Origin: Bacteroidota bacterium
Lineage (GTDB): Bacteria; Bacteroidota; Bacteroidia; Flavobacteriales_C; GCA-002722245
Length of the DNA stretch: 36,397 nucleotides
NCBI GenBank assembly: GCA_026390935.1
Contig: JAPLEZ010000091.1
Location: 1 to 36,397 of the forward strand
Direction: 5' to 3'
Positions 7,847 to 35,661 of this stretch are shown in pieces; position 1 is the first letter of the stretch, and each line of letters begins with the position of its first letter. Under the pieces are notes generated by a model, which was not told the DNA's origin, did not search any database, and saw only the letters and a list, made by a program, of their open reading frames with translations. A program made the translations under genes and the position numbers.

Positions 7847-9748
7847 CTACAACACTTCTCCTGCCTGGAAATTCCACCTTCTGAAAGCTTCCATCGCTTC
7901 ATATTCAGGCAATCCTAATACGTCATACAAATGCGCTGTTTCCTCATTTCTCTCTTTTGCACGTTGCCAGAATTCACGACTGTCGTTACCAGGGAAAACC
8001 GGAACGTCTTTTTGAGACTGGTGTTTGAAGATCGCCATTTTTTTACGGGTTACTTCATTCGGACTCAATGGCACTGCCATGTGGATTTCGTGGATTGGCC
8101 ATTCGTGCCATGCACCTCTGTACATCCACACATAACAATCCTGCATGAATTTTTCGCCTTTCAAACGGTTCACTGATTCAATGATGATGTCCAAACAAAC
8201 CTTATGTGTTCCATGTGGATCGGCTAAGTCGCCAGCCAAATAAATTTGATGCGGTTGAATTTTACGAATCAAATCCATTGTGATTTTAATGTCTTCCTCA
8301 CCAATGCCATTCTTTTTCACCTTACCTGTTTCGTAAAATGGCAAGTTCATGAAATGTGCATTTTCATCAGGAATACCACAATATCTGCAACCAGCTTTAG
8401 CTTCCATTCTTCTGATGGCACCTTTCATCTGACGAACATAAGCGGCATCATCAGCACCAATTTCTTTTTTATTGAATAAGGTTTTTACTTTATTGTAAAA
8501 CTCTTCTGCTTTGTCTTTAGGCATTCCAATGATTTCGGCAGCTTCTTGCATGAAATCAGCATAACAAATAACATCATCATCATGAACAGCAATGTTACCG
8601 GAAACCTGGTAAGCCACGTGCACTTCGTGACCCTGATCCACCAAACGGATGAAAGTTCCACCCATCGAAATTACGTCGTCATCTGGATGCGGCGAAAAGA
8701 TAATTGCGCGTTTGTATTGCGGTGATGGTCTTTCAGGACGGTTTTGTCCTTCAGTACCAGGTTTTCCACCTGGCCATCCTGTAATGGTATATTTAATTCT
8801 TTCGAAAGCTTTGATGTTGATTTCATAAGCTGAACCAGCTTTAGAAACCAAGTCACCCATGCTGTATTTATTGTAATCCTCGTCGGTCAGTTTCAAAATT
8901 GGTTTTTTCAAATGCTGAGCCAACCAAATCACCGCGTTGTATGTCAATTCTTCTGTCCAATCGCAAGTCCCAACCAACCAAGGTGTTTTTGTTCTTGCCA
9001 ATTCATCAGATGCAGCTTTATCCACGATAAAGGTTGTATCAGGGTGATTTTGCAAGAAAGTAGCAGGTACTTGGTGAGAAACCGAACCTTCTACAGTTCG
9101 TTCAATGATAGAAGCCTTACCAATTCCCCAAGCCATTAAATATACAGTGCGTGCTTTGAAAATACTTCCAACACCCATTGTAATGGCTGTTCTTGGTACG
9201 TTTTCCTCACTAAAGAAATCAGAAGCAGCATCACGACGAGTGATTCTGTCGAGAGTAACAATTCTGGTTTTAGATTGAACAGCAGATCCCGGCTCATTGA
9301 AACCAATATGACCTGTTCTACCAATACCTAACAATTGAATATCAATACCTCCCGCTTTGTCGATTTCCTCTTCGTATTTCTGACAAAGGTTTTCAACTTC
9401 GGAAAGATCCACGTCGCCAGCAGGAATATGAATATTTTCTTTTTTTATGTCGATGTGATTGAACAAATTCTCGTGCATAAAGCGATGGTAGCTTTGAATC
9501 GCTTTTGGCTGCATCGGATAATATTCATCAAGATTGAATGTGATGACATTAGCAAAGCTCAAGCCCTCTTCCTTGTGCATTCTAATTAACTCATCATAAA
9601 GCTTTAAAGGAGTTGTCCCTGTAGCTAAACCCAATACTGTTTTTTCTTTCTTCTTATTGCGGGCTTCAATAAGATTGCGGATTTTATCGGCAACAAATTT
9701 TGATCCGGCATCCGCATCATCGTACACAAGTGTTTTAATGTTTTCCAA
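7847..9748 (-). CDS. nagB: NagB-like glucosamine-6-phosphate deaminase fused to a PIG-L deacetylase-like domain
   Basis: This 633-residue protein has two domains. Residues 1-270 are NagB-like: phosphate loop LATGTTP (41-47), NLDEYYPM with Asp74, and GIGRTGHIGFNEPGS with His147 and Glu152. NagB converts glucosamine-6-phosphate to fructose-6-phosphate and ammonia. In E. coli NagB the equivalent motif reads NDGHIAFNEP; here the Asp of the His-Asp-Glu set is replaced by Thr145. Residues 345-600 are PIG-L/LmbE-like with the zinc motif HPDDD (354-358) and LAGDLADPHGTH, as in GlcNAc de-N-acetylases. The fusion is known in Bacteroidota. It has its own promoter-like element 98 bases after the lipoprotein operon and would feed chitin sugar to glycolysis. 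A combined deacetylase/deaminase activity is inference. Confidence 0.9.
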   Translation of the reverse strand: MENIKTLVYDDADAGSKFVADKIRNLIEARNKKKEKTVLGLATGTTPLKLYDELIRMHKEEGLSFANVITFNLDEYYPMQPKAIQSYHRFMHENLFNHIDIKKENIHIPAGDVDLSEVENLCQKYEEEIDKAGGIDIQLLGIGRTGHIGFNEPGSAVQSKTRIVTLDRITRRDAASDFFSEENVPRTAITMGVGSIFKARTVYLMAWGIGKASIIERTVEGSVSHQVPATFLQNHPDTTFIVDKAASDELARTKTPWLVGTCDWTEELTYNAVIWLAQHLKKPILKLTDEDYNKYSMGDLVSKAGSAYEINIKAFERIKYTITGWPGGKPGTEGQNRPERPSPQYKRAIIFSPHPDDDVISMGGTFIRLVDQGHEVHVAYQVSGNIAVHDDDVICYADFMQEAAEIIGMPKDKAEEFYNKVKTLFNKKEIGADDAAYVRQMKGAIRRMEAKAGCRYCGIPDENAHFMNLPFYETGKVKKNGIGEEDIKITMDLIRKIQPHQIYLAGDLADPHGTHKVCLDIIIESVNRLKGEKFMQDCYVWMYRGAWHEWPIHEIHMAVPLSPNEVTRKKMAIFKHQSQKDVPVFPGNDSREFWQRAKERNEETAHLYDVLGLPEYEAMEAFRRWNFQAGEVL

Positions 9749-9846: not shown

Positions 9847-10920
9847 TTAATAGTTACGTTTTTGCACTTCTTTGTAAGGAGCATCTACTGTAATAATTAA
9901 AAAATCAATCAAAGCTTTAGACTTCTTGTTTTGTTCAGGACCCGCTCCCAAACCAAAACCTAAATTAGTGATGTTGCTGTTGGTTGCAGAATTGTAAGTT
10001 GATGTAAAAGGGTGTAAATTCACAAACTCAGAGAATTTAATGGAAACCATTTTCCAGCCGTCCCAGTCCAGATTTAAATTATACAATTTAAATTCAGATG
10101 CAGGTGTGCCACTCTCTGTTTCTTCTGTGATGCCTTCTAGCGACAATTGTAATTGCGTATTTGGATAATCGCTAAGGTAACCTCTCACATACATATTCAA
10201 ATAAATTCGGTCGGGATCAGTGATTCCATATGTATTTTTCAATGCAGCAATTTGAGTAGCTATTGAATTTGTAAAACCACCATAGTACCACAATTTAACT
10301 GGAGGCGTTGAAATAGAATCTTTTGCAAACCCATAATAAAGCATTGCTTTTCCTCCTTGTGGAGATGGATCAACAGTGATATTATTCACTTTCATCACCG
10401 ACTTATTTACATCATTCCCCCAACCACCAGCAACGCTGTACGAACCTGTTGATGGAAAACCATCAAAATCATTCAGCAACATTCCGAAATTGATATTGTG
10501 TAAAGTTGGTTTTCCTGTGTAGGTAAAGCTTTTAGTTGTTCCGCCTTCCTTTCCACAACCCAACTCAAACTTCACTTGTACGTTTTCGTTTTTCTTGAAG
10601 AAATGGTCGTTTTCGGAGTTTCCATAAAAATCGATATTGATAGAATCAGATTTCCCTGTGTAGGATTTTACACCCAAACTATCTCCTTTGATGGTGATCC
10701 ACCACTCTACAACTTCTGTAAATCCAGCTTTCATAGTGAGTTTATCTGTAGCCGGATTCACCGAAGTAAGATTCAACTGAAAAGGAGTTGTCACTTTAAA
10801 AGCTGCGGAAGGACAAACCTCCGAACCTAGCGTATCCTTCTTGTGACAGCCATTAAGTGCTGCCGACGCAAGAAGCAGCAATGCAAGTTTGGAGGATGTA
10901 TTTTTAAATATACTTGTCAT
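9847..10920 (-). CDS. Lipoprotein of the chitin locus, second of two related copies
   Basis: This 357-residue protein has a lipoprotein signal peptide with lipobox LNGC (Cys25), followed by HKKDTLGSE. The charged residues after the Cys resemble surface-export signals of Bacteroidota lipoproteins. The middle (NFGMLLNDFDGFPSTGSYSV) and the C-terminal stretch LNLDWDGWKMVSIKFSEF look like a galactose-binding-like sugar-binding fold (CBM11-like wording); I do not recognise a named family. The neighbouring upstream lipoprotein has the matching stretch INVNWEGWKLVSVPYSQF and a similar end (DFLIITVDAP versus DFVVLSEGGP), so the two are tandem paralogues. The gap between them is 11 bases, so they share an operon. 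A role in binding chitin or its oligomers at the cell surface is inferred. Confidence 0.85.
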   Translation of the reverse strand: MTSIFKNTSSKLALLLLASAALNGCHKKDTLGSEVCPSAAFKVTTPFQLNLTSVNPATDKLTMKAGFTEVVEWWITIKGDSLGVKSYTGKSDSINIDFYGNSENDHFFKKNENVQVKFELGCGKEGGTTKSFTYTGKPTLHNINFGMLLNDFDGFPSTGSYSVAGGWGNDVNKSVMKVNNITVDPSPQGGKAMLYYGFAKDSISTPPVKLWYYGGFTNSIATQIAALKNTYGITDPDRIYLNMYVRGYLSDYPNTQLQLSLEGITEETESGTPASEFKLYNLNLDWDGWKMVSIKFSEFVNLHPFTSTYNSATNSNITNLGFGLGAGPEQNKKSKALIDFLIITVDAPYKEVQKRNY

Positions 10921-10931
10921 AAAACTTAATT

Positions 10932-12065
10932 TTAATATTTTGGAACAAAGGGACCACCTTCAGATAAAACCACAAAATCCACATCAGCTGCAACTTCAAA
11001 TCCGTAGGAAGGATCCGACAATAAGGAAACAGCCATAGCAGTAATTTTCCAAGGTTCTTGAATGTGATTTCCTGCGCCACCTTTTGTTAAATCATTGTCG
11101 ACACGGAATTGAGAATATGGAACACTCACCAGTTTCCAACCTTCCCAGTTTACATTGATGATGTAAATCCAACCATCGTTTTTAGCTTGCATTGGAACTG
11201 TATACACAAAATTCGCATTGGTTACTTTGCTTACCAACTCCTTACGAGTGCTTGCTGAATCGTATTCGTACATCTTCAACCCCACTGCCGAATTAACTTT
11301 ACCAGTTCCACGGATATAAATGTTCACATAAAATTCTTCTGGATTAGTCGACTTGATATTTTTGTTGGTATCAGAGCTCACCATCTCCACCAAATCTTTA
11401 TGATTCATACTAAAAATCCAACCGTTGTTGTTGATGTCGGTTCCTTCAATATGAAAAGCAGTACTTCCGTTGATTCTATGATCTTTAGTAGTCAAATACA
11501 AGTTGTTACCATTATCCGCAACGTCAGCCGAAAAACCTTGTATTCCTTTCGTACCCATGTGGTTTCCATCGTAGTCGTCTACCACTAAATACCTCACGCC
11601 ATCCACAGTACGCAAATGATATGAAAGCATTTTCTTGATAATGATTTGAGGTACGGTGGCAATCGCTGTATCAATCCCTTGCACATAAAGAGATGCTTTA
11701 CAAGTATCGCCCTGCATGAAAAACTGAATGCTGGTTGCATCACCTTCCCAAGTAGAATTAAGGTTATAGATAAACTTTCCAGTCCCCTTAATTTCCTTGT
11801 ATGCTTTGGAAGATTTTCCTTCAATTAAAATTTTCCAAGAAACATCTTCTTTAAATGCAGCTACAAAACTCACCGCTGTTCCAACAGTTTTATTGGACGC
11901 ACTGAAATCAGGATTTGCATTATTTACCGTCAATCCTGTATTGGCAAGCAAAGGATTTTCGCTAACAAAAAACACTTCCTCGCCAACCATCTCTTTTCTT
12001 TTACAAGCAACCGATCCTAGCAGAATCAGGAGTGAAAGAACTGTATATATTCTTTTTGTATACAT
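10932..12065 (-). CDS. Lipoprotein of the chitin locus, first of two related copies
   Basis: This 377-residue protein starts with a signal peptide ending in lipobox GSVAC (Cys21), followed by KRKEMVGEEVFF. Its paralogue has CHKKDTLGSEV at the same place, so even the post-Cys segment (basic cluster, then GxE) is conserved. The C-terminal third carries INVNWEGWKLVSVPYSQF, which resembles the conserved strand of CBM11-like beta-sandwich domains, followed by ITAMAVSLLSDPSYGFEVAADVDFVVL. It sits 11 bases after the second barrel gene. It has no SusD-type TPR helices, so it is not a SusD homologue. It probably binds glycan at the surface; the exact function is unknown. Confidence 0.85.
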   Translation of the reverse strand: MYTKRIYTVLSLLILLGSVACKRKEMVGEEVFFVSENPLLANTGLTVNNANPDFSASNKTVGTAVSFVAAFKEDVSWKILIEGKSSKAYKEIKGTGKFIYNLNSTWEGDATSIQFFMQGDTCKASLYVQGIDTAIATVPQIIIKKMLSYHLRTVDGVRYLVVDDYDGNHMGTKGIQGFSADVADNGNNLYLTTKDHRINGSTAFHIEGTDINNNGWIFSMNHKDLVEMVSSDTNKNIKSTNPEEFYVNIYIRGTGKVNSAVGLKMYEYDSASTRKELVSKVTNANFVYTVPMQAKNDGWIYIINVNWEGWKLVSVPYSQFRVDNDLTKGGAGNHIQEPWKITAMAVSLLSDPSYGFEVAADVDFVVLSEGGPFVPKY

Positions 12066-12076
12066 AGTAGACTCTA

Positions 12077-13801
12077 TTAAAATTTGCCTGTGTATGATAA
12101 CAGCAATTGAGAAATATTATAAGATCCTGCAGTCACTAAAGTATTGGTGTAACCAACATTATTGTAATGAACAGTGAAAGATTGCATAGGAGAAAAGCGT
12201 ACCTGAACACCTGCTGAAACAATTCCTTCAGTGGAGTTGATACTCACTCCGTTGATACTTGCTACAGAATTGTAAGCATCTCTCACTGATCGGAATTCAT
12301 TACCATTAGCAGTCAGCATTTTGTAACCGAACAACAAATCCACTTTTTTAATTACTTCAAAGGAAATTCCAGCATCAGCAACTGTGCTTGTTAATGCAAT
12401 TGAACCTGCTCCATCTCTTGCCGTTTTCTCCATTCTACCGCCTACTGAGAAATCCAGTTTACGCGTTAAGCCAATGAATTTTCCAATTTCAATTTTAGCA
12501 CCTCCTTTAAGCACCACAAAGTTTCTCAGCTCAGCTGTTCCTTCACCAACAATCTCTTTCAAATAATCAAAGCCAACTTCAAAATTCACATTTTTCATAG
12601 AGGTATCAGATGCAACAGCAATTGACATTCCGCTTCTATTTGGAGTTGCTTTACCATAAGGTTGAGCATTGTTGAACTGATTCAAGAAAGGAGTTAAAGT
12701 GTATGCAATTTTGCTATTGTACAATTGCTCTGAAGTTAATCTATCGAACAACAATGGCGATCTCAACACACTTGCATTATTTACCATTCCAAATAAAGCA
12801 GGATTTTGGTTATCGGAAACTCTTCTGGTTTGAGCAGTTGGACTGTTGTAGTATTGACCAACGTCAGTAAGTCCTAAAGTGAATTTAAGTCCACGACCTT
12901 TTAAAACAAAACTAGCTTTAAGATCTAAGAAATAATCTTGAAAAGATTTTGCTGAATCATTTAACGGCGACGGCACCACTTTTTTGTATGCAAAACTAGA
13001 AGCACCACCTTCAAATCTCACCTTAGCTACATAGGAATCAGAATTCATGATATACTCAATATCACCAGTTCCAACATTGTTTTTGTAAGAATATTGAGCC
13101 GATTGAATATCAACATCATTCAACCCAACATAAGTTGCACCCAATTTAATTGATTCTCCAAAGTTTGCACTCACTCTTCCACCTGAAAGCAATCTGTCGG
13201 AAACACTCATTTCATTAGTCGACGAAGTTCTGGTCACAAAACCATAAGCTCCGATTCCCCATTTTTCAAAATCGTGATGATGTTGTAAGTGCGCACCTTG
13301 CAATAACCAGCTGTTGCCCATATTCATGTTTTCATATTCCGTAATGCTTCTTCTTGTTTGAAAAATTTCAGCCTCGTACTTGTGGTAAGTATCGCAGAAA
13401 TTATAAACGGTGAAAGGAGTCAACTCCACGCGGATATCACCGATTTCATATTTGAAATCTTTGATTTTCCCCATAATTTTAAACTGACGGAATTTGAAAG
13501 AGTTGTTGCTTCCGTAAAAAGCACCAAACTCACTTCTCACCCTGTATTGAGCCATCGCCTGGAAGGCAGAATCCACTCCTAAGTTGTTTTGAAGGTCGAA
13601 TAAATTGTAACCACCAATTCCCTTGTTATGGGTTTTGGTGTCACCATCCATAATATTCCCGCTCAAATTGTTATTAGTAATGTAAGATCGACCCAAACCA
13701 TTCAAAGAAAATTTGGTCGTTTGTCCCATCATTTGTGCTTTGGGAGTTACTCCTAAAGCTACTATTAACGCCGACGTAAGTAATAATTTTTTGTTTTGCA
13801 T
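12077..13801 (-). CDS. Outer-membrane beta-barrel protein of the chitin locus (second copy)
   Basis: This 574-residue protein has a cleavable signal peptide (MQNKKLLLTSALIVALGV, cut near PKAQ). The rest shows alternating hydrophobic and polar strands and ends with Phe in LLLSYTGKF, the usual barrel end signal. No TonB box, plug domain or carboxypeptidase-like domain is present, so it is not SusC. It is distantly related to the next gene upstream: GDIRVELTPFTVYNF matches AGEVLWVKMSKFTMGQA in position, and WGIGAYGFVTRTSST matches WQVGVRGMFGRTSSS. It lies 13 bases after that gene. A channel or adhesion role for chitin fragments is inferred from the operon. Confidence 0.82.
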   Translation of the reverse strand: MQNKKLLLTSALIVALGVTPKAQMMGQTTKFSLNGLGRSYITNNNLSGNIMDGDTKTHNKGIGGYNLFDLQNNLGVDSAFQAMAQYRVRSEFGAFYGSNNSFKFRQFKIMGKIKDFKYEIGDIRVELTPFTVYNFCDTYHKYEAEIFQTRRSITEYENMNMGNSWLLQGAHLQHHHDFEKWGIGAYGFVTRTSSTNEMSVSDRLLSGGRVSANFGESIKLGATYVGLNDVDIQSAQYSYKNNVGTGDIEYIMNSDSYVAKVRFEGGASSFAYKKVVPSPLNDSAKSFQDYFLDLKASFVLKGRGLKFTLGLTDVGQYYNSPTAQTRRVSDNQNPALFGMVNNASVLRSPLLFDRLTSEQLYNSKIAYTLTPFLNQFNNAQPYGKATPNRSGMSIAVASDTSMKNVNFEVGFDYLKEIVGEGTAELRNFVVLKGGAKIEIGKFIGLTRKLDFSVGGRMEKTARDGAGSIALTSTVADAGISFEVIKKVDLLFGYKMLTANGNEFRSVRDAYNSVASINGVSINSTEGIVSAGVQVRFSPMQSFTVHYNNVGYTNTLVTAGSYNISQLLLSYTGKF

Positions 13802-13814
13802 TGCTTATAAATTA

Positions 13815-15881
13815 TTAGAAGAAAATTTTAAATTCAAAAGTTGTTTCGTTGCCCTGGAATACATCCTTAGTAAAGTTGGTATCAGAATGCGTAAAGTATC
13901 TGCGACGCAAGTGGATGTTCATGTTTCTGCTGATATCGTAATCAATCCCGAAAGCAACTGTTTTACCCAATTGATTAATTACTCTGTCTTCATCAGCTGC
14001 CGTTGGTTTATCTGGTGACAAATCAACCATGGTGCTGCCTTTTACAGTTTCAAATCCTACCTCACCCACTACCGATAAGTTTTTAAGTAAGCTGAATGCT
14101 ACCGTTAAATCTTCGTAGAAAACATTGATGAGCATTGTTTTTGAATCCATGCTTGGCAAAGGAGAAAATCCTTTTTGTACCGAGTTAAAGCTGTTGTAGT
14201 TCAACACTACCAATTTGTGTTTTCCGATGTTGAACTGACCTTTCAACAATAACTCAGCAGCATTGAATCCTTTTAAATATCCAGATCCAGCTTTAGCGGT
14301 ATCAATGGTAATGGTTTCATAAGTTCTGAACCATGATGATTTTACGCGGTGGTAAGGACCATTGGCTTGAAACCACGGACGCATTCTTGAACGAGAGAAA
14401 TCATTCACACGGTGTTGAATCGTGATCTGATTACTGATGTTTTCCTTCTCACCACTAAAAGCATAACCAAACTGAACTCTCACATATTTACCAATTCCAC
14501 CTTCTGCTCTGAAGTTCACTCCCTGACGGTTGTTGGCGATTTGTCCAACTTCCTGAGCGATGTTCGGTAAATACAATGCATCGTAAACTTTTTCTGTTCC
14601 GTATCCTCCCTGACTCAATGTTGGATTAGAGTTCAGGATTGATCCATCTAAACTTGCCATTCCTTTATTGATGTTATAGTACTCTACAGAGAAAGGAACC
14701 AAAACAATGCGTTTGTCAAATTCCGTTTTGAAATAATAAGCTTGTCCTAGCGGATTTGAAGAAGGTGATCCCGGATTAACAATTTTACCCAATCCGAATT
14801 CTCCCGACACCAATACCTTTTTAATTTTAAAATTGAAATCTAAAGTAGTTACCGTGTTGTTATCGGGTCTCTTGTCTTCAAATCCAACTTGCGCGCGTTT
14901 AGCGTAAAAGTTCAAACCAGCCATTCCCGACATGAATCTTTCAAACACCACTTTTTCCAAACGCACCACTCCTGTATATGAAGGGAAAAAATTGATGCCC
15001 TCCGAAATATTTACACTTGATGAAGTTCTACCAAACATCCCTCTCACTCCAACTTGCCATGGCAAATAGTTGGTTTCGTAAACCACACCAGTTACAGCGT
15101 TACCGCCCAACCCCTGATTACCAATATTGGTTGATTGAGAAAAATATTCTTCAAATCTTTCAAATGATCTTCTGTACCAATCCCATGGCAAACGATTGAA
15201 ATAGTTGTCTCTGTATTCCGCCTGACCCATGGTAAACTTGCTCATTTTTACCCACAACACCTCACCTGCTGTGATGCTGGTTTCAAACAAACCATTTCTG
15301 ATTCTTCCTGAAAAGTTGATGTTTTGACGAGCACTGATTGATCTGCTTCCTCCATTTTGAACATCACCAGTGAAAATCGGCGATAAGGAATAACCTACAT
15401 TAAAATCAATTTTCGATTTGTACTTGGATGAAATATTCAACTCTAACATCGGATATCCTCCCCCATTGGCTGTAGAAATATTAGCTGTTGGGTAATCGGA
15501 AAAAGCAATGCTTTTTTCACTGGTGATCATGTCGTCATACGACTTTTGCATATCGCGGTACACCACCAATGCACGCATCACTCCCGAAATCACTACATCG
15601 TCGCCAAACAAGGCCTTGCCTTGATTCATGCTTCCGAAATAATCATTCAATTTTTTCCCTTCGTATTGTGAATACGTAGGATTCAACATCAATGTAGTAG
15701 TTCCTGCGAAAGGAATTTTTCTCGACTGGCTGAAAATGTAATTTTCACGCAGTTCGAGTGAATCTTTGGCGCTCTGAATGGAATCCGTTGGATTGCCCGC
15801 GAAAACTGTTCCGCAACTCAACAACATTCCGAAAGTGCCCATCAAGCGAATTTTACGCTTACTTGAAATCTTTTTAATCAT
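13815..15881 (-). CDS. Outer-membrane beta-barrel protein of the chitin locus (first copy)
   Basis: This 688-residue protein has a signal peptide (about residues 1-28, ending GTVFAG) and a long barrel-like body with frequent aromatic girdle residues and a C-terminal FEFKIFF. It carries the WQVGVRGMFGRTSSS segment shared with its paralogue. It has no TonB box or plug. The region RDNYFNRLPWDWYRRSFERFEEYF is rich in aromatic and charged residues and could form an extracellular loop. The gene follows the chitinase by 48 bases on the same strand. The family is not recognised; it resembles large unannotated outer-membrane proteins of polysaccharide-degrading Bacteroidota. Transport, adhesion or assembly of the surface chitinase complex are all possible. 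Confidence 0.82.
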   Translation of the reverse strand: MIKKISSKRKIRLMGTFGMLLSCGTVFAGNPTDSIQSAKDSLELRENYIFSQSRKIPFAGTTTLMLNPTYSQYEGKKLNDYFGSMNQGKALFGDDVVISGVMRALVVYRDMQKSYDDMITSEKSIAFSDYPTANISTANGGGYPMLELNISSKYKSKIDFNVGYSLSPIFTGDVQNGGSRSISARQNINFSGRIRNGLFETSITAGEVLWVKMSKFTMGQAEYRDNYFNRLPWDWYRRSFERFEEYFSQSTNIGNQGLGGNAVTGVVYETNYLPWQVGVRGMFGRTSSSVNISEGINFFPSYTGVVRLEKVVFERFMSGMAGLNFYAKRAQVGFEDKRPDNNTVTTLDFNFKIKKVLVSGEFGLGKIVNPGSPSSNPLGQAYYFKTEFDKRIVLVPFSVEYYNINKGMASLDGSILNSNPTLSQGGYGTEKVYDALYLPNIAQEVGQIANNRQGVNFRAEGGIGKYVRVQFGYAFSGEKENISNQITIQHRVNDFSRSRMRPWFQANGPYHRVKSSWFRTYETITIDTAKAGSGYLKGFNAAELLLKGQFNIGKHKLVVLNYNSFNSVQKGFSPLPSMDSKTMLINVFYEDLTVAFSLLKNLSVVGEVGFETVKGSTMVDLSPDKPTAADEDRVINQLGKTVAFGIDYDISRNMNIHLRRRYFTHSDTNFTKDVFQGNETTFEFKIFF

Positions 15882-15929
15882 CAGATTGAAAATATTAATT
15901 TCTAAATTTTTTGATTTTTTTATGGAAGA

Positions 15930-17240
15930 TTAATTCCAACGTTTTTTGATGCGCGGACGAACCACTTGGTTGGTACCAAAAGCGTTCACCAACTCATCCA
16001 CCAGTGGAGTACCTGTAATGAGTAACGATCCTGGTTTTTTCTCCATATAGTCGCCAAACACATCCCAGATAATAGCTCCGGCACATTTGTTTTTAACGAT
16101 ATACTCGGCTTTTAGCTTTACAGATTTCGGATTGTCGTAAGAGACGAATGATTTCTCATCTTCGCTCACCAAATAAGGAACCTGTGCAACATCATCCCAG
16201 TATTCTTTGTAACCATGTTTTTTATATTCTTCCATGATATTGAAATACTGAGGCATTCCTTCGTGCTCTACAAATATAGTTCTGTCATCTGTTTTCTTGT
16301 GGCCAGTTCTGTAAATGGTAATTGGTGCATCTCCCTCAAAACCGCGAAGAGTTCTTCCATAAAAAGCAACACCCATGTTCAGTTTGGTGCTCGGCACTTT
16401 GTATTTCTCAGTCATTAAATGGAAAGCTTCATCTAAACTTCCTTTATATCCTTTCGCCGGATTGTACAAAGGAGAGTTGTGATTGGCATCGTCGCTCCAT
16501 GTACCGTTAAAATCGTAAGTCATCATATTGATGTAATCCATGAAAGGTGAAACCACATCCCACTTGATTTGATCCATTTGAGGAATGTTAGCGCCGTAAG
16601 CCCCAGTTAACAGAAATTTATAGTTTATTCTTTCTCCGTAGGCATCAATAGAGTCGCGGATTTCCTTCATAAACAAAGGATAGTTGTCTCTGTCCTGAGG
16701 AGTACCGCTATGCTCAGCATAACCTGGATATTCCCAATCGATGTCAATTCCATCAAACTGATAATGTCTCAATAATCGCACGCACTCCTGTGCAAAATGC
16801 GCTCTCTTTTTAGGCGATGCCGCAATCATAGGAAAATTGTCGGAAAGCGTCCAACCACCAATTGACACCATTACTTTCACACCGTATAAATGCGCATAGT
16901 CCACTAAACTTGAATTTGGATAATAAGCTGGCTGAGGTTTACTCCAGTCGATCCTTCCTTTTAACAAAATAGTATCTGCCCAAGGATCGGTACCTTCAAT
17001 GTTCGCCTCTTTATCAGGAGCGTAAAATGAGTAATTCAAAATAGTATAACGACTATAATCCAAAACTTCAGGCACAACACAGCCATTGCGTTTGTACATC
17101 TGCCAAGATGGAAAATAAGCGATAATTTCTTTTGGATTGCCTTGTGTTTGAACGGGTGTTTCTGTGGTTTTTTGTGCATTCAAGGATTGAAATACACCTG
17201 CAACAAGCAGCACTAAAGTTAGTAGAGTTAGTTTCTTCAT
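15930..17240 (-). CDS. Secreted GH18 chitinase
   Basis: This 436-residue protein has a signal peptide (MKKLTLLTLVLLVAGVFQS, cut after LNAQ). The GH18 barrel starts with KEIIAYFPSWQMYKR, has the substrate strand VMVSIGGWTLSDNF, and carries the catalytic motif DGIDIDWEYPGY with acid Glu170 (D163, D166 and D168 also present). MMTYDFNGTW and the late GAIIWDVFGDY are conserved barrel strands. GH18 chitinases cut beta-1,4-GlcNAc chains by substrate-assisted catalysis with retention. There is no chitin-binding module and no T9SS C-terminal domain; the chain ends VRPRIKKRWN just after the barrel. It is the first gene of a five-gene operon with two barrels and two lipoproteins, and has the clearest promoter of the region. 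Confidence 0.95.
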   Translation of the reverse strand: MKKLTLLTLVLLVAGVFQSLNAQKTTETPVQTQGNPKEIIAYFPSWQMYKRNGCVVPEVLDYSRYTILNYSFYAPDKEANIEGTDPWADTILLKGRIDWSKPQPAYYPNSSLVDYAHLYGVKVMVSIGGWTLSDNFPMIAASPKKRAHFAQECVRLLRHYQFDGIDIDWEYPGYAEHSGTPQDRDNYPLFMKEIRDSIDAYGERINYKFLLTGAYGANIPQMDQIKWDVVSPFMDYINMMTYDFNGTWSDDANHNSPLYNPAKGYKGSLDEAFHLMTEKYKVPSTKLNMGVAFYGRTLRGFEGDAPITIYRTGHKKTDDRTIFVEHEGMPQYFNIMEEYKKHGYKEYWDDVAQVPYLVSEDEKSFVSYDNPKSVKLKAEYIVKNKCAGAIIWDVFGDYMEKKPGSLLITGTPLVDELVNAFGTNQVVRPRIKKRWN

Positions 17241-17291: not shown

Positions 17292-17317
17292 TCACTTCAC
17301 ATTTAATATTAATTCGA

Positions 17318-17325
17318 AAACGTTT
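17318..17325. promoter_or_regulatory. Candidate LacI-family operator upstream of the chitinase
   Basis: AAACGTTT is a perfect palindrome with a central CG, embedded in TCGAAAACGTTTACA, a layout typical of LacI/GalR-type operators. It sits between the predicted promoter and the chitinase start, where a bound repressor would block transcription. No LacI-type gene is in the window, so the assignment is tentative. Confidence 0.35.
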
Positions 17326-17358
17326 ACAAGAAAAGTAAAACGAAACTCCCAATGGTTC

Positions 17359-17772: not shown

Positions 17773-18768
17773 TTATATCGATAGGATATTTGCTACTCGC
17801 AAAACTTCTTCATCAACATAATCTTTCTCAATGATGGCATCTTTAAATGAAGTGTAAACAACTTCATTTTTAATCAATCCCGCCATTACATTCTTTTTGC
17901 CGGCAATCAAACCTTCCACCGCAGCAACACCTAAGCGACTTGCTAAAATACGATCGAAAGATGTTGGATTTCCTCCTCTTTGAATGTGTCCGAGAATAGT
18001 CACTTTAGCATCAAAGTAATTCATTTTCTTGCAAACCTGTTGTGCAATATCAGCCGTTGAGCCTAACTTACAACCTTCTGCAACCACTACTATACTTGAT
18101 GTTTTTTTACGCAAACGACCTTTTTCCAGTTTTTCTACAATAGCATCAATGCTTCCTTCTCTTTCGGGAATTAAAATATCTACTGCACCAGAAGCCAAAC
18201 CTGTGTTGGCTGCAATAAAACCAGAATTTCGGCCCATCACTTCCACAAAAAACAAGCGGTTGTGCGACATAGCTGTGTTACGGATATTGTCAACTGCGCT
18301 AATAGCTGTATTGGTAGCGGTATCAAAACCAACGGTATAATCTGTTCCGTTCAAATCATTATCAATAGTTCCCGGAATACCAATGATTGGAATTCCGTGT
18401 TCCTGCGATAATAATTCAGCACCAGTAAAAGTACCGTTACCACCAATGGCAACCAAAGCGTCAATTTTACGCGCTTTCAAATTTTTGTAAGCTTTCAATC
18501 GGCCTTCTGGAGTTCTAAACTCCTCGCAGCGTGCCGACTCAAGAATAGTACCGCCTTTTTGCAAAATCTGATTGACAGAACGAACATCCATTTCATCAAT
18601 AATGTCATTGTCGATCATCCCTTCATATCCACGGTAAATTCCAGACACCGTTAATCCGTAATACACCGATGAACGAACGACTGCCCGAATGGCAGCGTTC
18701 ATTCCCGGTGAATCTCCTCCTGAAGTATAAACTCCTATTTTCTGTATCTTCTTCAATGCTTCAGCCAC
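17773..18768 (-). CDS. pfkA: 6-phosphofructokinase
   Basis: This 331-residue protein is a bacterial PFK of normal length, phosphorylating fructose-6-phosphate in glycolysis. It has the nucleotide loop GVYTSGGDSPGMNAA (12-26), the catalytic GTIDND (Asp136), VGFDTATNTA, the substrate strand EVMGRNSGFIA and LGHIQRGGNPTSFDR. The usual GGDG motif, whose Asp binds Mg-ATP in E. coli PfkA (Asp103), reads GGNG here (Asn111, codon AAC). The Gly after it is kept, which argues for ATP rather than pyrophosphate (pyrophosphate enzymes usually have GGDD). It starts 2 bases after gapA and ends in a strong terminator, so gapA-pfkA form an operon. Confidence 0.95.
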   Translation of the reverse strand: MAEALKKIQKIGVYTSGGDSPGMNAAIRAVVRSSVYYGLTVSGIYRGYEGMIDNDIIDEMDVRSVNQILQKGGTILESARCEEFRTPEGRLKAYKNLKARKIDALVAIGGNGTFTGAELLSQEHGIPIIGIPGTIDNDLNGTDYTVGFDTATNTAISAVDNIRNTAMSHNRLFFVEVMGRNSGFIAANTGLASGAVDILIPEREGSIDAIVEKLEKGRLRKKTSSIVVVAEGCKLGSTADIAQQVCKKMNYFDAKVTILGHIQRGGNPTSFDRILASRLGVAAVEGLIAGKKNVMAGLIKNEVVYTSFKDAIIEKDYVDEEVLRVANILSI

Positions 18769-18770
18769 AA

Positions 18771-19799
18771 TTATTTTTTACCTGTGAAGATAAGCGCCAA
18801 CTCAGCCATACGGTGAGAGAAGCCCATTTCGTTATCATAGAAACTTGTCATTTTAACAAGTGTATTTCCATTACTAGGAACAACCAATACGTCGTTCATG
18901 ATCATTGAAGAATAAGGCTCTCCAACGCAGTCTCTTGAACACTCGTAGAAATCACCGAAGTAAGCAGTTTGTTTCAAAATTGAACCGCTGTTGATTTTAG
19001 CAACGTTAGCTGTCATTGCAGCAGAAATTTCTTCTTTCGTTACATTTCCTTCAATTAAGTAAACCGCTTCAACTACTGATCCAGTATCGGTTGGAACTCT
19101 TAAAGCAGTACCATTTAATTTGCCATTTAAGTGAGGCAATACTTTACCTACTGCTTTCGCAGCTCCTGTAGATGCAGGAATAATGTTGTTCAAAGTTGCT
19201 CTGTTTTTTCCACCACCAAAAGCATCAGCTACTTTTTGAGTTGCTGTTGCAGCGTGAGTTGTAGAAATCAAACCAGAGATTACTTTATAAGTATCATCCA
19301 AAGCTTTAGTCATTGGAGCCAAGCAGTTGGTAGTACAAGATGCGTTAGAAACAATTTTGTCATCAGCGCTGATTGAATCGTGGTTCACACCAACAACTAC
19401 AGTTTTAGTAGCATCGTTACATGGAGCAGATACAATTACTCTTTTTGCACCAGCATTGATATGCGCTTGAGCTTTTTCAGTAGTTAAATAAAAACCAGTA
19501 CACTCAAAAACCACATCAACATCATGAGCACCCCATTTAATGTTGTTAGCGTCTTTTTCAGCGTATACAGTGATTTTATGTGTTCCTACTTGGATTACAT
19601 TGTCAGAAACCAATTTAACATCTACCGGAAATCTTCCAAAGATTGAATCTTTAGGTAAACCGCTAGCAATTTCAGAAGCCGGCACTAAGTCGTTCCCCGC
19701 TACGATTTCAATTTGATCGTTGAATTTTTCAACAATAACTCTCATTACATTTTTGCCGATTCGGCCCATTCCATTGAAAGCAACTTTAATTTTAGCCAT
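18771..19799 (-). CDS. gapA: Glyceraldehyde-3-phosphate dehydrogenase
   Basis: This 342-residue protein has the NAD-binding FNGMGRIGKN and the active-site SNASCTTNCLAP with its Cys nucleophile. AGNDL ends the second strand with the Asp that favours NAD over NADP. The protein differs from common GapA at well-kept places: FNGMGRIG instead of INGFGRIG, STTHAATATQ for TTxHAYTATQ, and SFYDNEMGFS in place of WYDNEWGYS. It therefore belongs to a divergent branch, but the catalytic Cys and the following His (TTHAA) are kept. It oxidises glyceraldehyde-3-phosphate with phosphate to 1,3-bisphosphoglycerate. It is the first gene of the gapA-pfkA operon. Confidence 0.95.
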   Translation of the reverse strand: MAKIKVAFNGMGRIGKNVMRVIVEKFNDQIEIVAGNDLVPASEIASGLPKDSIFGRFPVDVKLVSDNVIQVGTHKITVYAEKDANNIKWGAHDVDVVFECTGFYLTTEKAQAHINAGAKRVIVSAPCNDATKTVVVGVNHDSISADDKIVSNASCTTNCLAPMTKALDDTYKVISGLISTTHAATATQKVADAFGGGKNRATLNNIIPASTGAAKAVGKVLPHLNGKLNGTALRVPTDTGSVVEAVYLIEGNVTKEEISAAMTANVAKINSGSILKQTAYFGDFYECSRDCVGEPYSSMIMNDVLVVPSNGNTLVKMTSFYDNEMGFSHRMAELALIFTGKK

Positions 19800-33049: not shown

Positions 33050-33057
33050 TAGATTTG
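33050..33057 (+). promoter_or_regulatory. Candidate -7 element (TAGATTTG) for the hexosaminidase
   Basis: TAGATTTG matches TAnnTTTG and lies 19 bases before the ATG at 33076. It overlaps the TTG at 33055, an alternative start that would then be untranscribed. Confidence 0.45.
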
Positions 33058-33075
33058 ATTTCTACTCAACTGAAT

Positions 33076-35661
33076 ATGAAGAATTTGTTTTTTATCTTTT
33101 TTATTGCTGTTTTACTTACAGCATGCGATGAACCAGTAGTGAAAATTGCTGCTCCAGCAACAGCCAAGGATTTGGTGCTCACCTATGAAATGGTCACCAA
33201 CACCTATCAGAAAAAAGACCAGTCGCTCAACAAATTCACCATTCAAAACAATAGCGAAGGAAGTTGGGGTGCCAACTGGACCATCTACTTCAATCAAACC
33301 AGAAGCATTGTCGACAACACCATAAAAGGCGATGTTAAAATCACCAACATCAACGGCGATTACTACAAAATTGAACCTGCAAAAACTTTTAAAACCATTC
33401 CTTCCAAAGGAAAGTTGACTTTTACTTTTGAAACTGGAGCATGGATCATAAAAAACGCCGATTTCCCTTGTGGATTCTATATTGTATTTAAAGATTCCAC
33501 CGGCAAGGATTTAGCGCCCGAACTGCTTTCAAACGTTATTTATGCGCCATTGAATAAAGCAGAACAAACAAACAGAATTCCCAACGACAGCATTCCTGTT
33601 CCAACAGCGGAAAGCAGATATGAAAAAAATCTACTGATTAGTGATTTGAATGAAGGCGAATATTGTCCGATCATCCCCACTCCTACCTCTTACAAAAAAG
33701 AAAACGGAGAGTACAAAATCACTGGTAACACAATTCTATTTTACGATAAAAATTTAAAAACAGAAGCCATCTCGTTGCAAGCAACACTCACGAAATTTTT
33801 ACGTACCGAGCTAGAAATACGTGAAGGAAAAGGCTCTGGTATTGAATTGAGAACTGGCGCTAAATCGGTGAAAGGAGCTTATTCTTTAAAGGTTTCCGAC
33901 AAAGGTATTGTGATTTCGGCCTTTACTCCTGAAGGTATTTTCTACGGTGCGCAGAGTTTGAGAGCTTTAATTCCAGTGGCCGACTTCAAAAGAAATTTAG
34001 GCTCGGTGATCATTCCGGCATGCTCCGTAACTGATGTTCCAAAACTGGAATACCGAGGAATGTTTTTAGATGTTGCGCGCAACTTCCATTCAAAAGAAAG
34101 TGTTTTAAAATTGCTCGATTTAATGGCCTTTTACAAACTCAACAAATTCCATTTTCACATCATGGACGATGAAGGCTGGCGACTTGAAATTGCAGCTCTG
34201 CCTGAGTTAACCGAAGTAGGTTCAAAACGCGGACACACTAAAGATGAAACTGACATGCTCAATCCTACTTGCGGATCGGGCCCATTTGCCGATGCTGCAA
34301 AAAGCAATGGAACTGGGTTTTATACTAGAAAAGATTTCATTGAAATATTGACATACGCCGCCGATCGCCATATTGAAGTGATACCTGAAATGGATTTTCC
34401 TGGTCACGCCCGCGCTGCCATCGTTTCTATGAAAGCGCGCTACAACAAATACATTAAAACCGATGCTGCAAAAGCCAATGAATATTTGCTGCACGATCCT
34501 AATGACAAATCGAAATACAGTACCGAACAACATTACAACGACAACGTAATTTGCGTTGCTCAGGAATCGGTTTACAAATTCCTCGATACTGTTGTCACTG
34601 AAATTAGCGATATGTTCGACGAAGCTGGCGTTGAACTTACAACAATACACACGGGAGGCGATGAAGTTCCTCATCCAACATTAAAAAATCCGGAAGAAGG
34701 CGCATGGGTGAAATCTCCTATATGCATTGATTTCATGAACAAATCGGAGCAGTACAAAACTCCACGCAGCTTGTTCTACTACTACGTTTCACGATTCAAT
34801 AAAATTCTTTCCGACAAAAACATCATCACTGCAGGATGGGAAGAAATGGGTTTACTAAAACAATTACAGGATAGTGTTGAAACCATTGAACCCAACATGG
34901 AATTTGCAAATAAAACAGTTGTGCCTTACATATGGAACACCGTGTGGGGCTGGGGCAATGAAGACAGAGGATATAAGTTGGCCAACGCAGGCTTCAAAGT
35001 GGTTTTATCTAACGTGAGCAATCTTTATTTCGATTTAGCCAACGACAAAGATCCACTAGAAAACGGCTACTATTGGGGCGGATTTATTGATTTGAAAAAA
35101 ACGTGGTCCTTCACTCCTTTTAATATCGGCAACGGAATCAGTCAGGACAGAATGGGTCATTCCCTCGCTCCTGATTATATGAAAACACTAACACCTCTAA
35201 GCACAAAAGGCAAAAGCAATATTTTAGGGATTCAAGGACAGCTTTGGAGTGAAACCGTAAAAGGCAAAGAACTCATGGAGTACATGATATTCCCAAGAAT
35301 GATTGCCTTAGCCGAAAGAGCTTGGAATGGCGATCCTTCATGGAAAACCCAAAGCGAACAAGACCTTGCATGGAATCAGTTTGTGAATACTTTAGGAAAA
35401 AGAGATTTGCCGCGCTTGGAATACCTCACTAAAAACAACTCCATAAATTACAGAATTCCATTGCCTGGCGCTAAAATTGAAAACGATCAATTGTATGCCA
35501 ACATGGAAATTCCAGGTTTTACAATTATGTATTCTACAGACAATAAAACGTGGACGAAATACAGCGCTCCTGTTGCGGTGAAGAAAGGCAGCACAATTTA
35601 TCTTAAGGCTTCGAATAGCAAAGGAAGAGATGGCAGGGTGGTGACTATTACAGCACCCTGA
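33076..35661 (+). CDS. GH20 beta-N-acetylhexosaminidase lipoprotein with CHB_HEX domain
   Basis: The ATG at 33076 gives MKNLFFIFFIAVLLTAC, a lipoprotein signal with Cys17; the TTG at 33055 would precede it. The 861-residue protein has a CHB_HEX domain (about 30-170; NWTIYFNQTRSIVDN, IKNADFPCGFYIVFKD), a GH20b lead-in (YGAQSLRALIP near 300), the GH20 barrel (from YRGMFLDVARNFHSKESV) and a C-terminal beta-sandwich (GFTIMYSTDNKTWTKY). The catalytic pair is in HTGGDE (Asp529, Glu530), with WGWGNEDRGYK and GIQGQLWSE as further barrel strands. It would release GlcNAc from chitin oligomers at the cell surface or in the periplasm, using substrate-assisted catalysis. A paralogue follows. Confidence 0.95.
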   Translation: MKNLFFIFFIAVLLTACDEPVVKIAAPATAKDLVLTYEMVTNTYQKKDQSLNKFTIQNNSEGSWGANWTIYFNQTRSIVDNTIKGDVKITNINGDYYKIEPAKTFKTIPSKGKLTFTFETGAWIIKNADFPCGFYIVFKDSTGKDLAPELLSNVIYAPLNKAEQTNRIPNDSIPVPTAESRYEKNLLISDLNEGEYCPIIPTPTSYKKENGEYKITGNTILFYDKNLKTEAISLQATLTKFLRTELEIREGKGSGIELRTGAKSVKGAYSLKVSDKGIVISAFTPEGIFYGAQSLRALIPVADFKRNLGSVIIPACSVTDVPKLEYRGMFLDVARNFHSKESVLKLLDLMAFYKLNKFHFHIMDDEGWRLEIAALPELTEVGSKRGHTKDETDMLNPTCGSGPFADAAKSNGTGFYTRKDFIEILTYAADRHIEVIPEMDFPGHARAAIVSMKARYNKYIKTDAAKANEYLLHDPNDKSKYSTEQHYNDNVICVAQESVYKFLDTVVTEISDMFDEAGVELTTIHTGGDEVPHPTLKNPEEGAWVKSPICIDFMNKSEQYKTPRSLFYYYVSRFNKILSDKNIITAGWEEMGLLKQLQDSVETIEPNMEFANKTVVPYIWNTVWGWGNEDRGYKLANAGFKVVLSNVSNLYFDLANDKDPLENGYYWGGFIDLKKTWSFTPFNIGNGISQDRMGHSLAPDYMKTLTPLSTKGKSNILGIQGQLWSETVKGKELMEYMIFPRMIALAERAWNGDPSWKTQSEQDLAWNQFVNTLGKRDLPRLEYLTKNNSINYRIPLPGAKIENDQLYANMEIPGFTIMYSTDNKTWTKYSAPVAVKKGSTIYLKASNSKGRDGRVVTITAP

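Follow-up and report, generated by a model that had tools for sequence, protein, structure and literature searches.

A probable SusCD-free chitin utilization locus with twin plug-less barrels, related to the cellulose cluster chu_1276-1280 of Cytophaga

Introduction

How would a bacterium use an operon that sets a chitinase beside two large outer-membrane barrels and two lipoproteins, with neither SusC nor SusD, on which most Bacteroidota depend, among them? This question is raised by contig JAPLEZ010000091.1 of the Bacteroidota assembly GCA_026390935.1, from which a stretch of 36,397 nucleotides (the window) was analyzed. Within it, five genes encode a glycoside hydrolase (GH) family 18 chitinase, barrels A and B, and lipoproteins C and D. 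A sequence-only reading had proposed that the barrels and lipoproteins form a surface complex or pore system analogous to SusCD but made of other components, and our analysis supports that proposal, because no match to SusC or SusD was found and the gene order recurs across lineages. The operon probably constitutes a SusCD-free polysaccharide utilization locus (PUL) dedicated to chitin, with an importer paralogous to the products of chu_1276-1280.

The chu_1276-1280 cluster has been described as an 'atypical PUL' for cellulose in just three cellulolytic species, Cytophaga hutchinsonii, C. aurantiaca, and S. myxococcoides, with CHU_1276 and CHU_1277 residing in the outer membrane and CHU_1280 acting as an endoglucanase (PMC12016534). 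The same report presents chu_1276, chu_1277, and chu_1279 as needed for normal cellulose use (PMC12016534). Which proteins move cellulose fragments across the Cytophaga outer membrane has been stated to be an open question (PMC6247017). With a homologous cellulose cluster already known genetically, the system is not wholly new, and it is its breadth that appears new: our search of the open-access literature turned up no chitin, starch, or xylan version.

Results

Relationship to the Cytophaga cellulose cluster

To represent chu_1276-1280, we used locus L084 of C. aurantiaca DSM 3654, which was equated with the published cluster by gene order, protein sizes, and the residues Y253, F256, and F343. 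This locus encodes, in order, barrel A (747 residues), barrel B (605), a lipoprotein (379), a protein with tandem carbohydrate-binding modules (CBMs; 374), and a GH9 enzyme (589). Its CBM-tandem protein carries Y253, F256, and F343, the published cellulose-binding aromatics of CHU_1279, for which the binding-deficient variant is Y253A-F256A-F343A (PMC12016534). Profiles based on the window matched barrels A and B of L084 with E-values of 5e-189 and 5e-187, respectively, and the profile of the C-family lipoprotein matched gene 9 of that locus (E 6e-70). Because the profiles match L084, and because the order and aromatics of L084 fit the published cluster, the window's cassette is, by sequence comparison, a paralogue of chu_1276-1280, with barrels and lipoproteins homologous to chu_1276-1278. 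In both clusters, a homologous lipoprotein comes after an adjacent pair of homologous barrels, the glycosidase lacks the tail of the type IX secretion system (T9SS), and SusC and SusD are absent. They differ in that GH18 lies upstream in the window whereas GH9 lies downstream in Cytophaga, and in that the window has a second CHU_1278-type lipoprotein instead of a CHU_1279-type CBM tandem. Furthermore, the window's cassette is followed by a NagB/PIG-L fusion gene, and its target would be chitin.

Barrels A and B

The two barrels had been proposed as paralogues from shared short motifs, which are thin evidence alone. Plain BLAST between them gave an E-value of 0.02, which we rejected as proof of paralogy in favor of a controlled profile comparison. 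Using profiles built from 73 and 74 homologues, hhalign aligned barrel A with barrel B over 487 columns (probability 98.6, E 5e-16), and reversed and column-shuffled control profiles yielded no A-B match. The WxxGxxGxxxRTSS and GD/E..FT segments fall at corresponding places in this alignment, and the paralogy stands on the profile evidence. The absence of a plug, also noted previously, was confirmed by a Pfam scan that found no Plug or TonB_dep_Rec domain in either barrel at E-values up to 1. Neither barrel scored above cut-off for any Pfam or NCBIfam family, SusD included, and no sequence match to SusC, SusD, a known porin, or a known secretion family was found. AlphaFold modeled barrel A as a barrel without plug (predicted local distance difference test, pLDDT, 80.5; predicted template modeling score, pTM, 0.78) with residues 20-91 disordered, and barrel B as a plug-less barrel of ~22 strands (pLDDT 91.5, pTM 0.86). 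Barrel B also carries a strongly conserved PYGxATPNR loop.

For barrel B, Foldseek ranked E. coli ChiP first (E 3.5e-9; template modeling (TM) score 0.37, 10% identity). The chitoporins, which include ChiP of E. coli/Serratia and of Vibrio, are likewise outer-membrane barrels linked to chitin, but they have 16 strands, whereas barrel B is larger and accompanied by a partner barrel and lipoproteins. Chitoporin, AlgE, MtrB, and TonB receptors all appeared among the Foldseek matches, but because the TM-scores were low and the families mixed, we did not accept any of them as membership. Searching solved structures by sequence yielded no useful relative, and the match of barrel B to an OprF fragment (E 0.00045) looks barrel-general.

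Lipoproteins C and D

The proposed kinship of the two lipoproteins was borne out by BLASTP (E 2e-9, 22% identity over ~369 columns). Neither matched a Pfam or NCBIfam family above cut-off or, by sequence, a PDB structure; below threshold, the lipoproteins show similarity to CBM_11 and SGBP_B_XBD, with a weak CBM_11 match in lipoprotein D (E 0.0015). This similarity recalls the surface glycan-binding proteins of the SGBP-B type, which are also outer-membrane lipoproteins with CBM-like domains. However, lipoproteins C and D stay below the Pfam cut-offs and are apparently the main, not the accessory, binding proteins here.

Gene order and trees of the cassette

An alignment of barrel B was scanned against 84,980 species genomes, which yielded 141 relatives, from which 79 loci were kept. 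The carrier assemblies are labeled Flavobacteriales, Cytophagales, Chitinophagaceae, Saprospiraceae, and Bacteroidales, and the cassette is uncommon, as it occurs in 6/396 genomes of an even phylum sample that includes the window's own. Barrel A lies directly upstream of barrel B on the same strand for 80/80 barrel-B genes with an upstream neighbor, and a C-family lipoprotein lies directly downstream in 73/76 loci, the other three having a CBM-tandem relative there. This A-B-lipoprotein order is far beyond chance, and it extends across several Bacteroidota lineages rather than being unique to one genome. Cassette-carrying loci L051, L083, L118, and L127 are labeled Chryseobacterium gleum, Bifidobacterium breve, and Chitinophaga pinensis; of these names, at least Bifidobacterium must be wrong for a locus of outer-membrane barrels.

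The enzymes that neighbor the cassettes include GH18; GH9; GH13 with GH31 or GH97; GH16 with GH3; pectate lyase; GH30, GH43, and GH67 (xylan); and GH5, GH31, GH2, and FGGY kinase (xyloglucan). We infer the likely cassette substrates from these enzyme families. Other neighbors include permeases of the SSF and MFS families and regulators of the two-component-propeller type. Beside GH16 cassettes (L094:1988-4888 and relatives) lie Reg_prop/Y_Y_Y/GerE sensor-regulators, which suggests control of SusCD-free loci that resembles that by hybrid two-component systems.

Quick trees under a simple model were built from 75 A-B pairs, with enzyme labels taken from genes within six positions, which left 26/75 rows unlabeled. 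In the A tree and the B tree alike, a single branch separates all 14 GH18 cassettes, plus the enzyme-less paralogue L053, from the rest. The six enzyme classes need five changes in either tree, the fewest that six classes allow, and each of 200 shuffles on the B tree needed at least 23. Distances among A barrels correlate with those among B barrels (r 0.89; best of 500 permutations, 0.11), and the two trees share 48/72 splits. Taken together, these results show cassette and enzyme behaving as one unit, which does not in itself prove barrel specificity. L053, like L042, is a chitin-clade cassette of two barrels and two lipoproteins that has no GH18 neighbor and lies in a genome that also holds a GH18 cassette.

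Four cassettes and no SusD in the window's genome

The window's genome holds four adjacent A-B pairs, on contigs 32, 48, 58, and 107, and a C-family lipoprotein follows each pair. Their enzyme sets are GH18 (the window), GH16 with GH3 (contig 48), GH9 with a CHU_1279-type CBM-tandem protein (contig 58), and GH13 with GH97 (contig 107), and the four cassettes fall in four different clades; the alpha-glucan cassette, for example, sits among GH13 cassettes from assemblies of Chitinophagaceae and Cytophagaceae. SusD (PF07980, PF14322) was not found in this genome, whereas a control genome was positive. Within the window's family, barrel A occurs in 10/10 genomes and SusD_RagB (PF07980) in 0/10.

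Location of the cassette GH18

The GH18 enzyme has a Sec signal peptide, an intact catalytic motif (DxxDxDxE, as DGIDIDWE), and no T9SS tail. Cassette GH18s and GH9s elsewhere also end without such a tail, and the GH18 of L048 (the same gene in L055) is fused to a peptidoglycan-binding OmpA domain. Because it lacks a T9SS tail and its relative in L048 is fused to an OmpA domain, the cassette GH18 is probably periplasmic. The earlier description of this enzyme as secreted is thus probably wrong if an extracellular location is meant, as the enzyme is unlike most other GH18s of the genome: of seven others, five have Por_Secre_tail above cut-off, and one partial match is cut by the locus edge. Tails on those enzymes and none on the cassette GH18 would place T9SS chitinases outside the cell and the cassette enzyme in the periplasm. 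By analogy, this placement would match the location reported for CHU_1280, which PMC6247017 cites as periplasmic and also finds outside the cell. Upstream of barrel A, the cellulose and alpha-glucan cassettes (L029:13330-14412, L030:12640-13722, and L044:7349-8323) encode a protein with a T9SS tail that the chitin cassette lacks, and the tail is Pfam-supported in L029 and L030.

Operon layout and neighboring genes

The five-gene minus-strand layout read from the sequence was recovered in full (Table 1), with transcription running from GH18 through barrel A, barrel B, and lipoprotein C to lipoprotein D across gaps of 48, 13, 11, and 11 bp. Conserved in the window's family, the NagB/PIG-L fusion begins 98 bp downstream of lipoprotein D and would be the cytosolic end of the chitin pathway; among the cassette and fusion genes, only it and GH18 were named by Pfam or NCBIfam. 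It adjoins the cassette in L032, L037, L043, L045, L047, and L048. An extra unfused NagB lies between cassette and fusion in L043, L045, L047, and L048. The GH20 enzyme likely belongs to the same chitin pathway, though outside the operon, and MFS and HGSNAT/NagX-like genes lie near chitin cassettes in some relatives. Directly upstream of the operon are phosphofructokinase and glyceraldehyde-3-phosphate dehydrogenase genes (17773-19799, minus strand), a neighborhood kept in both genera of the window's family (L032, L037, L043, L045-L048). The palindrome upstream of GH18 recurs at equal distance in L049 and L054 only and is absent from more distant relatives; an upstream operator common to all cassettes was sought, and none was found.

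Table 1. Positions of the operon genes and associated features in the window.
Feature	Coordinates	Strand	Length (amino acids)	Description
GH18 chitinase	15930..17240	-	436	Pfam Glyco_hydro_18 (PF00704), E 2.2e-69
Barrel A	13815..15881	-	688	Plug-less outer-membrane barrel homologue, CHU_1276 position
Barrel B	12077..13801	-	574	Outer-membrane barrel homologue, CHU_1277 position
Lipoprotein C	10932..12065	-	377	SGBP-like, CHU_1278-position family; lipobox SVAC in translation
Lipoprotein D	9847..10920	-	357	Second CHU_1278-type copy at the CHU_1279 place
NagB (N-acetylglucosamine-6-phosphate deaminase)/PIG-L deacetylase fusion	7847..9748	-	633	NCBIfam PRK02122, E 0
Palindrome TGTAAACGTTTTCGA	17314..17328	-		LacI-type-looking putative operator, ~80 bp upstream of GH18
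GH20 beta-hexosaminidase	33055-35661	+		Lipobox, CHB_HEX domains

Discussion

Based on these findings, we propose the following mechanism for chitin use. Extracellular T9SS chitinases would open crystalline chitin, and lipoproteins C and D would keep the released chains or oligomers bound at the surface of the cell. In a probable complex with the lipoproteins, barrels A and B would pass the chains across the outer membrane with no TonB plug for drive. The periplasmic GH18 would cut the imported chains, and GH20, an inner-membrane permease, and the NagB/PIG-L fusion would complete the pathway. Outer-membrane location and a need for growth have been shown in the literature for the cellulose version only and may extend to the chitin version by analogy, and chitin binding, transport, and the energy source of import are steps that we infer.

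Several observations weigh against an importer of this kind. No member of the cassette family has direct evidence of transport, and Foldseek gave the barrels weak generic barrel matches only, with TM-scores of at most ~0.43 by query length. Lipoprotein D aligned with the CBM-tandem family at an hhalign probability of 16%, so that the binding part differs from that of the cellulose cluster. The sorting of clades by enzyme could reflect block transfer of the operon instead of barrel specificity. In addition, 3/5 sampled distant carriers also have SusD, and we therefore rejected the idea that the cassette substitutes for SusD in every carrier. Finally, PMC5553014 reports that loss of CHU_1277 also lowers cell-associated beta-glucosidase activity, which makes a scaffold role of the barrels possible.

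That role is the main rival, in which the barrels are surface scaffolds that arrange enzymes and binding lipoproteins so that they adhere to insoluble polymer, and oligomers enter through ordinary porins or TonB receptors. The 12 TonB plugs elsewhere in the window's genome would suit such entry, and for CHU_1279 the presence of the protein counts for more than its ability to bind cellulose (PMC12016534). However, cassettes also lie beside enzymes for soluble polymers (GH13/GH97, starch-like glucans), their GH18s and GH9s lack surface-anchoring tails, with one fused to a periplasmic OmpA domain, and some adjoin inner-membrane sugar permeases, which leaves the scaffold explanation unlikely in our judgment. 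Far less credible is an ordinary SusCD PUL in which SusC and SusD have diverged past recognition. SusCD PULs such as the chitin utilization locus of Flavobacterium johnsoniae (PMC5127042) also assign an outer-membrane barrel, a surface lipoprotein, and a glycosidase to one polymer, so the operon logic is alike, and models of CHU_1276 were reported to match TonB-dependent transporters (PMC12016534). In contrast, the window's system has two barrels, not one, neither with a plug by Pfam and barrel A with a disordered N-terminus; its lipoproteins are CBM-like and not built of tetratricopeptide repeats; its TonB receptor matches were no better than its porin matches; and SusD is absent genome-wide. 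Export or presentation of a polysaccharide or glycosidase, as by AlgE or an usher, is similarly improbable even with AlgE, Wzi, and ushers among the weak Foldseek matches, as the vicinity lacks a polymer synthase, a co-polymerase, and a chaperone, the neighbors are degradative hydrolases, permeases, and catabolic enzymes, and mutants of the cellulose version fail to grow on cellulose (PMC12016534).

Beyond the chitin PUL itself, we lean slightly toward a broader interpretation, in which twin plug-less barrels with CBM-like lipoproteins constitute a second general polysaccharide importer of the Bacteroidota outer membrane. Such importers would admit long chains that are cut in the periplasm, would exist in chitin, cellulose, alpha-glucan, laminarin, xylan, xyloglucan, and pectin versions, and would have fully replaced SusCD in the window's family. 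With the barrel pair found beside separate enzyme sets, one clade per class, what had been an isolated odd locus becomes a family with comparable and testable specificity, for which the soluble starch and chitin oligomer versions would make transport assays easy. A locus definition based on susCD pairs would miss all of these cassettes, so that counts of polysaccharide use among Bacteroidota without SusD are presumably too low.

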